Positions 54,196 to 62,309 of a stretch of 64,000 nucleotides of DNA are shown here, piece after piece. This stretch comes from Nitrosomonadales bacterium. Lineage in GTDB: Bacteria; Pseudomonadota; Gammaproteobacteria; Burkholderiales; Gallionellaceae. Under the pieces are notes generated by a model that did not search any database, was not told the origin of the DNA, and worked only from the letters and a program-made list of their open reading frames with translations. The first letter of the stretch is position 1, and each line of letters starts with the position of its first letter. Made by a program: the position numbers and the translations under genes. The stretch covers positions 62,001-126,000 of the forward strand of contig JACRNY010000004.1 in assembly GCA_016214695.1 (NCBI GenBank), written 5' to 3'.

Positions 54196-57003
54196 CTAGA
54201 ACGATTGCCCCAGCTGCAGATAACCCCGCACCTTGCCCGGATGGTCCATGCCATGCGCGACGCCCAGTCGTAGCGGAATGGTGGCGAGGTAGATCAGCCT
54301 GATCTCTCCCAGCAGTTCGATGCCGACACCGCGATAGTACTTCGGTCGCGGGCTGCCGTTGTCCCAGGCACGGCCAGCATCCAGGAACAGCGCGGTGGAA
54401 AGACGGTTGATGCCCACCGGAGGGGTCATGGCGTGGCGGTCGATGTCGGCGATGGGCGTGCGCCATTCGATGCTGGCGGTGCGGGCGTTCTGTCCGCGCA
54501 GTTCCAGTTCGCCGCCGCGGTATCCGCGCAACGGCAGGTCGTGCTGGTTGAGCATGGGGGCTTGCGTCAGGCCGTGTTCGAACGAACCGCCGAGATAGAA
54601 CGGCTCGGTGATGTCCTGCGCACGCGCTTCCGTCCATCTTGCACTGAGCACCGTCCTGCCGAGGGGCAGGTAGCCGCGCGTGTCGAAGCGCACGATATGG
54701 CCGTCGTAATGGCTGTTGAACGGGCGGTAGCTTTCGTACAGCAGTGTGCTGAGGTTGCCGCGGTTGACACCGTCGGCATACCAGTTGCTGTCGCGCGTGT
54801 CGTAGCGCAGGAAGGCGGCGGCGACGCGTTCGTCCTGCGCCCTGCTGGTCAGGCCGGCGATCTGTACCCGGTCGGTGGTCTGCAGGGCGGCACCGATGCC
54901 GAGATAGAGGCGGCGTTCGCTCTGCAGCCACGGCAGCATCGAGGCCCATTGCACGTCGGTGGTGCGGTCATACAGCGTGGTGGTCTCGTCGTTGTTGGCG
55001 CCGGTCCATTCCCGCGCCCACAACTCGCGCGAGGCGCTGAAGAAATGGTGGCCGAGGTATTCGTAGTTGAAGCTGCCCAGCGCCTCGTGCTGCGAGGTCT
55101 CCCACAGCAGGTTGGCGTTGTAGCTGTGCCAGAGCAGGGCATCGCTGCCGAAGATGGAGACGCCATAGGCGCTCAGGCCGCGGTCGATGAACGAGGCGGG
55201 CATCCACGCACGCGGATACATCGAATACAGGGCGTTGTAGTCGCTGGCTTTGCCCAGTGGATGGGTGATGGGCGGGGTATCTCCTTGCAATGGCGTGGTC
55301 AGGCGGGTGTCCGGCTTTATCTGTGCGATCGGTGCGATGCCGCTCATGCGCCGCAATTCCGTGCCGCCCGCGGCCAGTTCGCCAAGCACGACAGAGCCGT
55401 CCTGCGCGACGCCGCTATGCAGCAACACGGCGGTATAGGTGTGGCTCAAACGGGTCAATCCCTGCGTGTCGGGGGCATAACGCCAGAGGTTGTAGATGCC
55501 GTCCCTGGCAGCGATGAATTCCAGTCCGTCGCCGCCGAGTGAATAACGCAGGCTGTGTATCGGCGCGTCGTAGTTGAACAGCACACGCGGCTTGCCGCCG
55601 GCGCTATCGAATTCCAGCACCTGCCAGGTGTTGGCCTGTTTGATCGACAGGGCGATACGCTTTCCGTCCGGGCTGGCCGCCAGATCGACCGCTTCGACCT
55701 GGTCCGGGGTCTGATAGAGCTTCTGTGCCTCACGCCACTCGTTCTCGCGCTGTTCCAGCATGAGCAGCGTGCTGACTCCGCCGACTGTGCGCAATGCCGC
55801 AACCTGTTCGCCCATCCAGACGGCGCGACGGTAGCGTCCGCATTCGGTCTTGCGCTGCATGCCTGCAGACGGGCTCCAGGTGTAGAGGTCGTAATAGTAG
55901 TTGTAGTTGTTGCAGACTTCGGGTTGCGCGATGAGTACCTTGCCGTCCGCGCGCACATCGATATGCGCACCGGATCTCACATTGGCAAGATGACGTTTGT
56001 TTCCCTGTGCATCGATGTGCTGCAGTCTGGTGCGCAGCAAGCCGTCATTGACCACGGCCAGCACACCGCCATCGGGTGCCGGGGCCAGCGAGTCTATTTC
56101 GAAATTGGCCGGCAGGATGATGTCGCCCGCCGTGCGCGGCATCGCCTTGAGCGGTGCCTCGCGCCGCGACATCTGTTCGGTCATATCGACGATGAATTCG
56201 TTCCACAGCACATCCATGGTCTTGCCGGTCGCGTATTCCGGATTGGTGTGCACGCGCGCGACCAGCGGGAAGTTGCCGCTGTAGCGATGGATGTAATTGT
56301 AGATCGCTTCCTGTCCGTATCTGTGCGCCAGGAAATCGTAGAAGTAGACGCCGTACAAATATTGCTTGGAGGTGGGGAGCGCGCGCCCGTCCGCATTCAT
56401 CTCGGCCAGCGATTTGAAACCGCGCTCATGCTCGATGCGCATCCACGCCTCGAAGATGGGGCCGCGCAAACGGCCCTGGCCGATCTCGGGCGTACTCTCG
56501 TTGTAGGTGGCGATGCCTTCGATGGCCCAGCCCGGTTGCCACAGGTTGGGGAACAGCGGCAGATGGCGCCCGAAGATCTGGCGCATCACGGCGGGTATTC
56601 CGCGCGCCTTGTCCATATGGATGGTGTGTGTCAGCTCGTGCGTGATGAGCAGTTCCAGCCAGATGCTGTTGTCGAGCAGTTCGCCTTCGTCGGGCGGTGT
56701 CAGGAAGATCGCGGATTCGTTGAACGGATAGGGTGTGGAGAAGCCGTTGGCCATGTCGAACTCGTCCAGGACGATGATCTCTATCCTGCCGCTGGGCTCC
56801 CAGTGCAACTCCCGCGTCAGCGTGGCGTAGACGCGCTCGGCGATATCGGCGATGCGTTCCGCCTGGACGCGCTGCGGAGCGGCGTAATTGACGCGGAAAT
56901 GTGCGCTGTCCGCAGTGGACCAGTCGCGGTGAGGATCAGGGCCGAGCGCCTGGGCGGCAGAAGCGAGGGTGCAGAGGCAAAGCGCAAGCAGGACGTGTCG
57001 CAT
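54196..57003 (-). CDS. Outer-membrane protein: metalloprotease domain, beta-propeller and C-terminal barrel
   Basis: 935 residues. A signal peptide (MRHVLLALCLCTLASAAQA) precedes a gluzincin-type peptidase domain with HELTH (His122-Glu123...His126) in LLITHELTHTIHMD and a downstream glutamate in GWAIEGIATYNE (Glu162), the expected third zinc ligand. Residues about 290-590 have propeller-like repeats (AVDLAASPDGKRIALSIKQ). The last 300 residues look like a Bam/D15-type barrel (YEYLGHHFFSAS, LRGYRGGELELRGQNARTAS) and end in phenylalanine. No function is recognised. The start at 57003 follows GGGGAT and gives a clean signal peptide. It reads through from rne only past a terminator. Confidence 0.82.
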   Translation of the reverse strand: MRHVLLALCLCTLASAAQALGPDPHRDWSTADSAHFRVNYAAPQRVQAERIADIAERVYATLTRELHWEPSGRIEIIVLDEFDMANGFSTPYPFNESAIFLTPPDEGELLDNSIWLELLITHELTHTIHMDKARGIPAVMRQIFGRHLPLFPNLWQPGWAIEGIATYNESTPEIGQGRLRGPIFEAWMRIEHERGFKSLAEMNADGRALPTSKQYLYGVYFYDFLAHRYGQEAIYNYIHRYSGNFPLVARVHTNPEYATGKTMDVLWNEFIVDMTEQMSRREAPLKAMPRTAGDIILPANFEIDSLAPAPDGGVLAVVNDGLLRTRLQHIDAQGNKRHLANVRSGAHIDVRADGKVLIAQPEVCNNYNYYYDLYTWSPSAGMQRKTECGRYRRAVWMGEQVAALRTVGGVSTLLMLEQRENEWREAQKLYQTPDQVEAVDLAASPDGKRIALSIKQANTWQVLEFDSAGGKPRVLFNYDAPIHSLRYSLGGDGLEFIAARDGIYNLWRYAPDTQGLTRLSHTYTAVLLHSGVAQDGSVVLGELAAGGTELRRMSGIAPIAQIKPDTRLTTPLQGDTPPITHPLGKASDYNALYSMYPRAWMPASFIDRGLSAYGVSIFGSDALLWHSYNANLLWETSQHEALGSFNYEYLGHHFFSASRELWAREWTGANNDETTTLYDRTTDVQWASMLPWLQSERRLYLGIGAALQTTDRVQIAGLTSRAQDERVAAAFLRYDTRDSNWYADGVNRGNLSTLLYESYRPFNSHYDGHIVRFDTRGYLPLGRTVLSARWTEARAQDITEPFYLGGSFEHGLTQAPMLNQHDLPLRGYRGGELELRGQNARTASIEWRTPIADIDRHAMTPPVGINRLSTALFLDAGRAWDNGSPRPKYYRGVGIELLGEIRLIYLATIPLRLGVAHGMDHPGKVRGYLQLGQSF

Positions 57004-57020
57004 GTGGCATCCCCAAAATG

Positions 57021-57047
57021 AAAAAGCGCACGGCATCCCGTGCGCTT
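57021..57047 (-). terminator. Rho-independent terminator of rne
   Basis: On the minus strand a 10-bp stem (AAGCGCACGG with CCGTGCGCTT) and a 4-base loop end in a run of T's (the five A's at 57021-57025 on the plus strand). It lies 26 bases after the rne stop at 57073. Confidence 0.92.
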
Positions 57048-57072
57048 CCATTATCCGCCAAACCGCTCTGTT

Positions 57073-61293: not shown

Positions 61294-62309
61294 CGTTTGC
61301 GCGCCAGATAGATCGTTACTTCCTCGCGGTCGTGATAGAGCTGTCTGGCCTCCAGCTGGTAGCGGATGCCTTTGTTATTGAGCGCCGTGCGCAGGCTGTC
61401 GAGTGCTTCCTTCAATGCTGCGACGCGTTTCTTCATCGGCAGTTTGAGGTTGAAGATGGCGCGCTGGGTCATGCCGCCGACGAACCATTCAGTCATCAAT
61501 GCGGCGACGCGTTGCGGTTGTTCCACCATGTCGCATACCAGCCAGTCCACCGGGCGTTGCGGGCGGAAGCGGAAGCCGTCCTGACGCAGGTGTTTGATGT
61601 TGGGATGTCCCGCTGCCGCACCTTTGAGCGGGCCGTTGTCCACCGCCGTCACTTTCAATCCGCGTTGCACCAGTTGCCAGGTCCAGCCGCCGGGTGCGGC
61701 GCCGAGGTCGATGGCGGTCATGCCCGGTTTCAGCCATAAGGCCTGTTCCTTCTTGTCGAGGAACACTTCGAACGCTTCCGCGAGTTTTAGATAGGAACGG
61801 CTGGGCGCATCGCTCGCCATGCTCACGCGGTGGATGCCGTTGAGGGCAGATGTGCTGTTGTGCGGATCGCTGCTGGCGATCAGGGCGCGATGTTCGTCGG
61901 GGAAGAAGATGTGCAGGCGCGGCAGGGTCGGGTCATCGATCAGGCGCGAGCTAGTGCGCAACGCTTCTTCCATCAAGGGCTGGAAGCGCTTGGTGAAGCC
62001 AGAGAGGGTCTTGCCCTCGTTGGTATCCGGCACTTCCAGATACAGTGCGCCGAATTTCTCGGGAGATGCGGGCAGTGCGGCCAGCAAGGGGCTGAGGCGG
62101 TCGCCTTCCGGCAGGTCGTTCACTTCGCCGTGCAGGGTAAGCAGCTGGCGTGCGAAGCTCAGTTGCCGGTATGCCAATTTCGCTTTGCCTTGCAGCACAA
62201 CGAAGCCGCTGTCGGCAGTCGTTTCGACGGGTTTGGCCTGGGTCTCTTCGACACAATCGCGTTCGAAGCCGGGGCGGCAGTAGATCAGCCATGATGGAAG
62301 TGCGTTCAT
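61290..62309 (-). CDS. rlmM: RlmM, 23S rRNA (C2498-2'-O) methyltransferase
   Basis: 339 residues. An N-terminal THUMP-like domain (about 1-160) is followed by a Rossmann methyltransferase with the SAM motif AIDLGAAPGGWTWQLVQRG and the conserved WLVCDMVEQPQRVA and IFNLKLPMKKRV. It methylates C2498 in the peptidyl-transferase region. It is convergent with the proline-rich gene and divergent from the HAD gene. Confidence 0.95.
   Translation of the reverse strand: MNALPSWLIYCRPGFERDCVEETQAKPVETTADSGFVVLQGKAKLAYRQLSFARQLLTLHGEVNDLPEGDRLSPLLAALPASPEKFGALYLEVPDTNEGKTLSGFTKRFQPLMEEALRTSSRLIDDPTLPRLHIFFPDEHRALIASSDPHNSTSALNGIHRVSMASDAPSRSYLKLAEAFEVFLDKKEQALWLKPGMTAIDLGAAPGGWTWQLVQRGLKVTAVDNGPLKGAAAGHPNIKHLRQDGFRFRPQRPVDWLVCDMVEQPQRVAALMTEWFVGGMTQRAIFNLKLPMKKRVAALKEALDSLRTALNNKGIRYQLEARQLYHDREEVTIYLARKR

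Follow-up and report, generated by a model that had tools for sequence, protein, structure and literature searches.

A predicted zinc protease, a TolB-like propeller and an Omp85-type barrel in one protein of a Gallionellaceae bacterium

The gene and its product

We analyzed a stretch of 64,000 nucleotides (the window; positions 62,001 to 126,000 of contig JACRNY010000004.1, assembly GCA_016214695.1) from a Nitrosomonadales bacterium of the family Gallionellaceae, whose genome comprises 2.66 Mb in 9 contigs. The minus strand of the window carries a coding sequence at 54196-57003 (ATG at 57003, stop codon at 54198-54196). Its product of 935 amino acid residues, here called P0001 and used for all residue numbers, has a gluzincin-like domain with a conserved predicted zinc site, a TolB/PD40-type beta-propeller and a C-terminal barrel assigned to the Omp85 superfamily. 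The protein class is a real, conserved and apparently unstudied variant of this superfamily. A close relative has the same gene, with 88% identity. The features of the gene are summarized in Table 1. The start codon at 57003 was preferred over an in-frame upstream ATG at 57051 because of the placement of the GGGGA sequence and because the predicted signal peptide then ends in AQA; no lipobox was seen by eye in the signal peptide region.

Table 1. Features of the gene and of its upstream region (positions in the window; domain boundaries are approximate)
Feature	Positions	Strand	Basis
Whole coding sequence, 935 residues plus stop	54196..57003	-	Open reading frame; relatives match over the full length
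Shine-Dalgarno-like GGGGA	57010..57014	-	Read in the sequence
Predicted signal peptide, residues 1-19, ending in AQA	56947..57003	-	Sequence; hydrophobic start in 16 close rows
N-terminal gluzincin-like domain (N-domain), residues 20-290	56134..56946	-	Best-conserved part; low-confidence model matches M1/LTA4 hydrolase gluzincins
HELTH, residues 122-126; predicted zinc ligands H122 and H126, predicted catalytic E123	56626..56640	-	63 of 64 scorable rows
Glu162 of WAIEGIATY, predicted third zinc ligand	56518..56520	-	63 of 64 scorable rows; lost along with HExxH in L102
TolB/PD40-type beta-propeller, residues 291-565	55309..56133	-	PD40 and TolB models in members; TolB structures
Variable linker, residues 566-595	55219..55308	-	Identity of at least 90% in 1 of 30 columns
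Omp85-superfamily barrel, residues 596-935 (start approximate)	54199..55218	-	PF01103; 38 of 38 class genomes; TamA profile
RGY motif, residues 826-828	54520..54528	-	R in 57, G in 63 and Y in 62 of 65 rows
Terminator-like hairpin between rne and the gene	57022..57049	-	Sequence; by eye in 14 of 16 close loci

The zinc site and the three parts of the protein

Relatives were aligned from the mature N-terminus to the C-terminus in a close set of 16 members (A1) and a wide set of 36 members (A2), and a family alignment of 65 rows (16 from the genus, 37 from the class and 12 from outside the class) was used to score the zinc site. One row (L114) is without the N-domain, which leaves 64 scorable rows. 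H122, E123, H126 and E162 are all present in 63 of them (16 genus, 35 class and 12 outside-class rows). In P0001, 35 residues separate His126 from Glu162, the residue at which EGIATY begins. The sole exception, L102, has Q, K, Q and A at the four positions, and such a joint loss would be expected if the four residues work together. G163 and E169 are invariant in all 64 rows, and H129 is present in 60. The distant rows are merely 21-32% identical to P0001, so the conservation of the zinc site is not a matter of chance. The initial annotation had read a gluzincin site from HELTH and EGIATY and had named the loss of zinc ligands in relatives as one of the observations that would overturn its reading; the site was borne out, and the loss was found in L102 only, 1 of the 64 scorable rows.

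The count leaves out three of 40 class rows (two from L089, of 285 residues and of 807 residues with a low score and HEQAH, and L113, of 444 residues with HEYVH), the class carrier G116, whose gene lies in two frames, three of the 19 carriers in the genus (L043 with a frameshift, L047 and L048 truncated at contig ends), five of 17 outside-class carriers cut by contig ends, and G227 (L249), which was added later.

Among the 65 rows, identity of at least 90% is reached in 42 of the 271 columns of the N-domain, in 9 of the 275 of the propeller and in 27 of the 340 of the barrel, and the mean identity to P0001 across the class is 36%, 23% and 27%, respectively. The ratio of nonsynonymous to synonymous substitution rates (dN/dS) is approximately 0.04-0.11 in every domain, a rough estimate from three close pairs with dS of 0.6-1.9. 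The family is under purifying selection.

An AlphaFold model of the N-domain, built from two sequences, was of low confidence (pLDDT 47.1, pTM 0.46). With this weak model, the best 50 of 547 Foldseek matches (E up to 10; best E 0.014) were all what we take to be M1-family gluzincins, and by the same family assignment 49 of the 50 matches listed by VIA-align were M1 and one was M30, at Z of 8.0-8.7, although a Z near 8 can reflect a common structural arrangement. As an example, 92 residues were superposed at 2.4 A on yeast LTA4 hydrolase. These matches carry weight because they agree with the independently found zinc motif, and together they suggest a gluzincin-type fold for the N-domain, as in M1 aminopeptidases, LTA4 hydrolase and the M30 protein lugdulysin. 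The N-domain differs from M1 in its motif spacing (the Glu follows the second His after 35 residues here and after 18 in M1), the structure matches listed share 6-16% identity with it, and P0001 has no M1 Pfam match.

Profiles of other peptidase families gave less. Peptidase_MA_2 (PF13485) gave a best E of 5e-4 and matches in two of the 36 wide members at the E 0.01 threshold, and had no match in P0001; two member scores, 15.4 and 16.5 bits, lie far below the cut-off of 32.4; a search of 41 related genomes with the same profile returned nothing and was uninformative, as the controls likewise returned nothing. P0001 has no M48 Pfam match, and comparison of the N-domain with M48 by hhalign gave probabilities of 0.5% with a BepA-like set and 1% with an HtpX-like set, the latter with a score of 21.1 over 24 residues at HExxH (five shuffles, 13.0-17.3).

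The propeller-like repeats noted initially proved to be of the TolB/PD40 type. At E 0.01, PD40 was found in 23 and the TolB model TIGR02800 in 29 of the 36 wide members, and the family profile matched solved TolB chains with a best E of 1.7e-22. P0001 by itself gave no PD40 match, TIGR02800 only at E 0.24, nothing significant in NCBIfam and, as a single sequence, no match to solved chains at E 1. TolB, with its homologous propeller, is a soluble protein and is not known to have a gluzincin domain or a barrel. As a separate observation, an in-frame 99-bp unit (33 codons) is inserted in the propeller of L044, L045, L046 and L048; in L045 (L045:9805-10020) there are about 2.2 tandem copies with a 99% match and a diverged third (about 82%), so that expansion of the repeat within the gene may be under way.

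The C-terminal barrel with a terminal phenylalanine was likewise confirmed, and can now be placed more sharply. PF01103, the sole Pfam family matched in P0001, lies at residues 771-892 (30.2 bits, cut-off 24), and a match of this Omp85 type was found in 12 of the 16 close members (E of 0.1 or less) and in 10 of the 36 wide members (E 0.01). The barrel aligned by hhalign to a set of three TamA sequences with a probability of 73%, E 3e-5 and a score of 45.8, compared with 11.7-19.2 for 20 column shuffles, 13.5 for the N-domain and 14.9 for the propeller; alignment to BamA gave 1% and a score of 23.6 (five shuffles, 14.5-17.1). The RGY motif corresponds to the RG(F/Y) signature of Omp85 loop 6, and 53 of the 65 rows end in Phe. 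On the strength of the PF01103 match, the RGY motif and the TamA profile match, we assign the barrel by sequence to the Omp85 superfamily. A POTRA domain is usual in the Omp85 superfamily and is missing from its non-POTRA subfamilies (PMC4104836); none was matched in P0001 at E 1, and none was among the families matched in the 36 members at E 0.01. The barrel profile matched no solved chain at E 10, and an amphipathic scan gave no clear strand count to set against the 16 transmembrane strands of the superfamily.

Distribution, relatives and genomic context

The gene was found in 19 of 34 genomes of the genus (the window's own included; several copies are cut or frameshifted), and in 12 of the 21 near-complete ones. 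It was absent from the 27 genomes compared from elsewhere in the family and order, where two matches were to the propeller only. In the class sample, 38 of 369 genomes (own included) matched, and every match took in some or all of the N-domain. At the level of the phylum, 393 of 398 sampled genomes matched, nearly all through the TolB propeller; counting only long, top-listed matches, there are at least 17 carriers outside the class, of which 16 belong to a single family and one, G428, to a different family, and some of these matches are cut by contig ends. A search of the class with the barrel profile alone returned the same 38 genomes and three weak ones. One of the three, G227, encodes a protein (L249) of 1001 residues with HELVH and WYLEGIA, which is probably a divergent member of the family. 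Where a strong barrel match lacked the other parts in the same frame, it was a contig-end piece (G161, G096) or part of a broken gene (G345, G116). The gene family is real and conserved in scattered proteobacteria, and the patchy distribution indicates that this is not a generally essential gene.

A homologue from another phylum is without the barrel. The plasmid-encoded protein WP_118831798.1 (L228) of Salinibacter ruber has 633 residues, a homologous protease domain and propeller (BLASTP E 7e-22 to L105) and the zinc motifs HELVH and WLIEGMAEY; it is annotated as a 'basic secretory protein-like protein', and its Pfam BSP score is 21.7 bits against a cut-off of 23.8. Since this barrel-less homologue keeps the protease, the propeller and the zinc site, it suggests that a protease-propeller unit became attached to a barrel.

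Several genomes hold altered or additional copies. G112 has two, L115 with an intact HEYVH and L102, which is without all four zinc residues and keeps the rest; L102 is likely a pseudoprotease paralogue. G348 has a more distant relative (L089:1-2421, HEQAH) about 17 kb from the full-length L116. In G345 the gene lies in two pieces (L113, L114) about 180 kb apart on one contig, with the break between residues 383 and 590, the result of rearrangement or misassembly. In L043 (G027) the frame shifts near residue 427, which makes it a pseudogene or an assembly error, and in G116 (C8:41219-43794) the N-domain in a frame of 203 residues and the barrel in a frame of 672 residues share one contig, so that the gene is either broken or misassembled. 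On mobile elements, a search of a plasmid collection with P0001 gave no match, searches of plasmids (L105, L112) and phages (L149) gave partial matches only and no full-length relative, PHROGs and PADLOC gave nothing for the two proteins tried, and one scan of viral contigs found no family member.

By greedy calling of open reading frames, rne lies upstream of the gene in no fewer than 11 of the 17 close loci. Among 39 wider loci, six have a gene at position -1 or -3 that we take to be ArgA-like, and other genes, presumably of a housekeeping kind, adjoin several of the 12 outside-class loci. The attempt to assign a function by gene association failed, no neighbours being conserved between lineages.

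We also examined a possible relation to the translocation and assembly module (TAM), which consists of TamA and TamB. In the window's own genome, P0001 is the only Omp85 match besides BamA at E 0.001, and neither a TamA-like nor a TamB match was found. Within the genus, TAM was present in 6 of 19 carriers against 12 of 15 non-carriers (Fisher test, P = 0.007); G019 and G026 were scored as positive by a contig-end TamA fragment together with TamB, and G009 by TamA alone. A BamA tree of 27 of the 34 genus genomes (the row of G004 is void, being in the wrong frame, and 8 of 24 inner branches are unresolved) grouped most TAM genomes apart from most TAM-less carriers, so that few independent TAM events are likely. 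Across the class, with the window's own genome excluded, 24 of 37 carriers had TamB, as did 183 of 331 non-carriers (Fisher test, P = 0.30). Replacement of TAM by P0001 was therefore rejected: the signal in the genus comes from few clades and there is no class-wide link. In its own right, the joint absence of TamA and TamB from about half of the 34 genus genomes, the window's included, is an observation to record, and on the BamA tree the losses seem to lie in a few clades.

Proposed function, alternatives and expression

The three-part architecture, the conserved zinc site, the Omp85 kinship and the purifying selection are observed; catalysis, the periplasmic side, gating and the substrates are what we infer, the substrates being a guess. 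On balance, P0001 is probably a gluzincin anchored in the outer membrane and facing the periplasm, with a gating propeller and a barrel that is mainly an anchor, engaged in quality control or processing of envelope proteins. The Sec system would export the protein, the Omp85-type barrel would insert in the outer membrane, and the gluzincin domain and the TolB-like propeller would project into the periplasm. Peptide bonds of envelope proteins would be cleaved at the zinc site (H122, H126 and E162, with E123 as the base), and the propeller, placed between protease and barrel, would limit or select the access to it. In several peptidases, among them DPP IV and prolyl oligopeptidase, a propeller protects the active site, which makes the gating plausible. 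The barrel may also present outer-membrane protein clients. The likeliest job would be to clear or mature proteins of the outer membrane or the periplasm, a role comparable to that of BepA but within one polypeptide. BepA, a periplasmic zinc protease of the M48 family in Escherichia coli, takes part in the assembly and degradation of an outer-membrane protein (PMC8423444, PMC7950410; papers given by PMC number are cited from excerpts). The likeness is an analogy of role only: BepA has neither barrel nor propeller, and no profile kinship with the N-domain was detected. It combines the M48 fold with a TPR domain.

Several points weigh against this proposal. The case for catalysis is made from sequence and model; the weak N-domain model had no Foldseek match at E 0.001, family members reached no known protease family above its cut-off, and kinship with M48 (BepA/HtpX) was not detected by hhalign beyond the motif. 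The full-length model was of too low confidence (pLDDT 30.7, pTM 0.25) to show topology, strand count or domain packing, and the score of the barrel against BamA hardly exceeds that of the unrelated N-domain against BamA (20.2). No neighbouring gene is conserved between lineages or points to a substrate. In addition, given L102, a non-catalytic propeller and barrel may have a use of their own.

The initial annotation had left open whether the protease would be surface-exposed or periplasmic. We favour the periplasm because the POTRA domains of characterized Omp85 proteins are periplasmic and because the enzyme domain of PlpD from Pseudomonas aeruginosa, the enzyme-Omp85 protein that has been studied, stays in the periplasm; FplA, a Fusobacterium homologue of PlpD, was not detected on the surface (PMC11116518). 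PlpD resembles P0001 in having an enzyme domain fused to an Omp85 barrel and differs in that its enzyme is patatin-like (a lipase) and that it has a POTRA domain, with no propeller named in the excerpted account (PMC11116518). A surface protease, in which the barrel would export its own protease and propeller in a type Vd-like manner to cut external proteins or polymers, would suit the signal peptide, the protein's own barrel, the barrel-less protease-propeller relative in Salinibacter and the earlier proposal that PlpD is a surface or type Vd secretion protein (PMC4104836). We consider it unlikely: the enzyme domain of PlpD was later located solely in the periplasm (PMC11116518), about 570 N-terminal residues including a propeller would make poor cargo for threading, and no mark of a surface passenger was noticed in the sequence.

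The protein could instead be primarily a factor for the assembly of outer-membrane proteins, similar to a fusion of BamA and BamB, the protease merely removing failed clients. The Omp85 kinship by Pfam and TamA profile points in this direction, as does the Omp85 inventory of the window's genome described above, and the idea of a BamA-BamB fusion has been published for WD40-Omp85, one of the ten Omp85 subfamilies of Heinz and Lithgow (2014), which is listed among the non-POTRA architectures (PMC4104836). WD40-Omp85 likewise has a TolB-like propeller N-terminal to the Omp85 barrel; the one section of the main text that mentions it gives a propeller and no gluzincin or protease, and the comparison is one of descriptions only (PMC4104836). 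Since P0001 has no POTRA by Pfam scan, and the complementarity with TAM rests on few clades of the genus and is absent class-wide, a primary assembly role seems rather doubtful. Still less probable, and in our view very unlikely, is that the protein is no protease, its zinc site hydrolyzing something else or binding a ligand in a receptor or scaffold. The Foldseek matches listed include LTA4 hydrolase, an enzyme with epoxide hydrolase activity as well, and L102 does without the zinc site; on the other side stand the full gluzincin set with the catalytic Glu in nearly all scorable rows and the fact that peptide bonds are what most known enzymes of this motif and fold cleave.

No study of a protein uniting protease, propeller and Omp85 barrel was found among the matches listed in a search of the open-licence literature at the level of titles and abstracts. 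The remark in the initial annotation that no characterized example was known agrees with this, but a catalogue of 2014 already includes WD40-Omp85 as a subfamily (PMC4104836). Its idea of a protease tethered to its own barrel stands as architecture, the barrel now being of the Omp85 type, and the proteolysis itself is predicted. A 'metalloprotease' (Metallo) subfamily of Omp85 has also been described, with an enzyme-like domain ahead of the barrel as in P0001, and was defined on PF00149 (PMC4104836). This domain, Metallophos by its Pfam name, is not a gluzincin. We take PF00149 to be a phosphoesterase family; as the 2014 label rests on it, the present family may be the true protease branch of the Omp85 superfamily.

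A more far-reaching version of the periplasmic proposal, which we hold to be doubtful, is that the protein is a quality-control machine of the outer membrane in one chain, in which the Omp85 barrel would receive or sense clients, the propeller would be the gate and the periplasmic zinc protease would act on them, the whole having arisen from a free protease-propeller protein joined to a barrel. It would be the first Omp85 protein shown to be a genuine protease, and a propeller-guarded, membrane-anchored protease would be a new way of policing envelope proteins. Several Omp85 subfamilies beyond BamA, TamA and FhaC are without an assigned function, and the subfamilies were called not well characterized in the 2024 paper on PlpD (PMC11116518). 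The present one bears a conserved enzyme site.

As to expression, the hairpin between rne and the gene is strong and lies 18 nt ahead of the start codon. A promoter scan of the upstream region found one site, where 0.9 were expected, and none downstream of the hairpin; it is thus conceivable that the gene may be expressed by read-through or may be controlled by the 5' hairpin.

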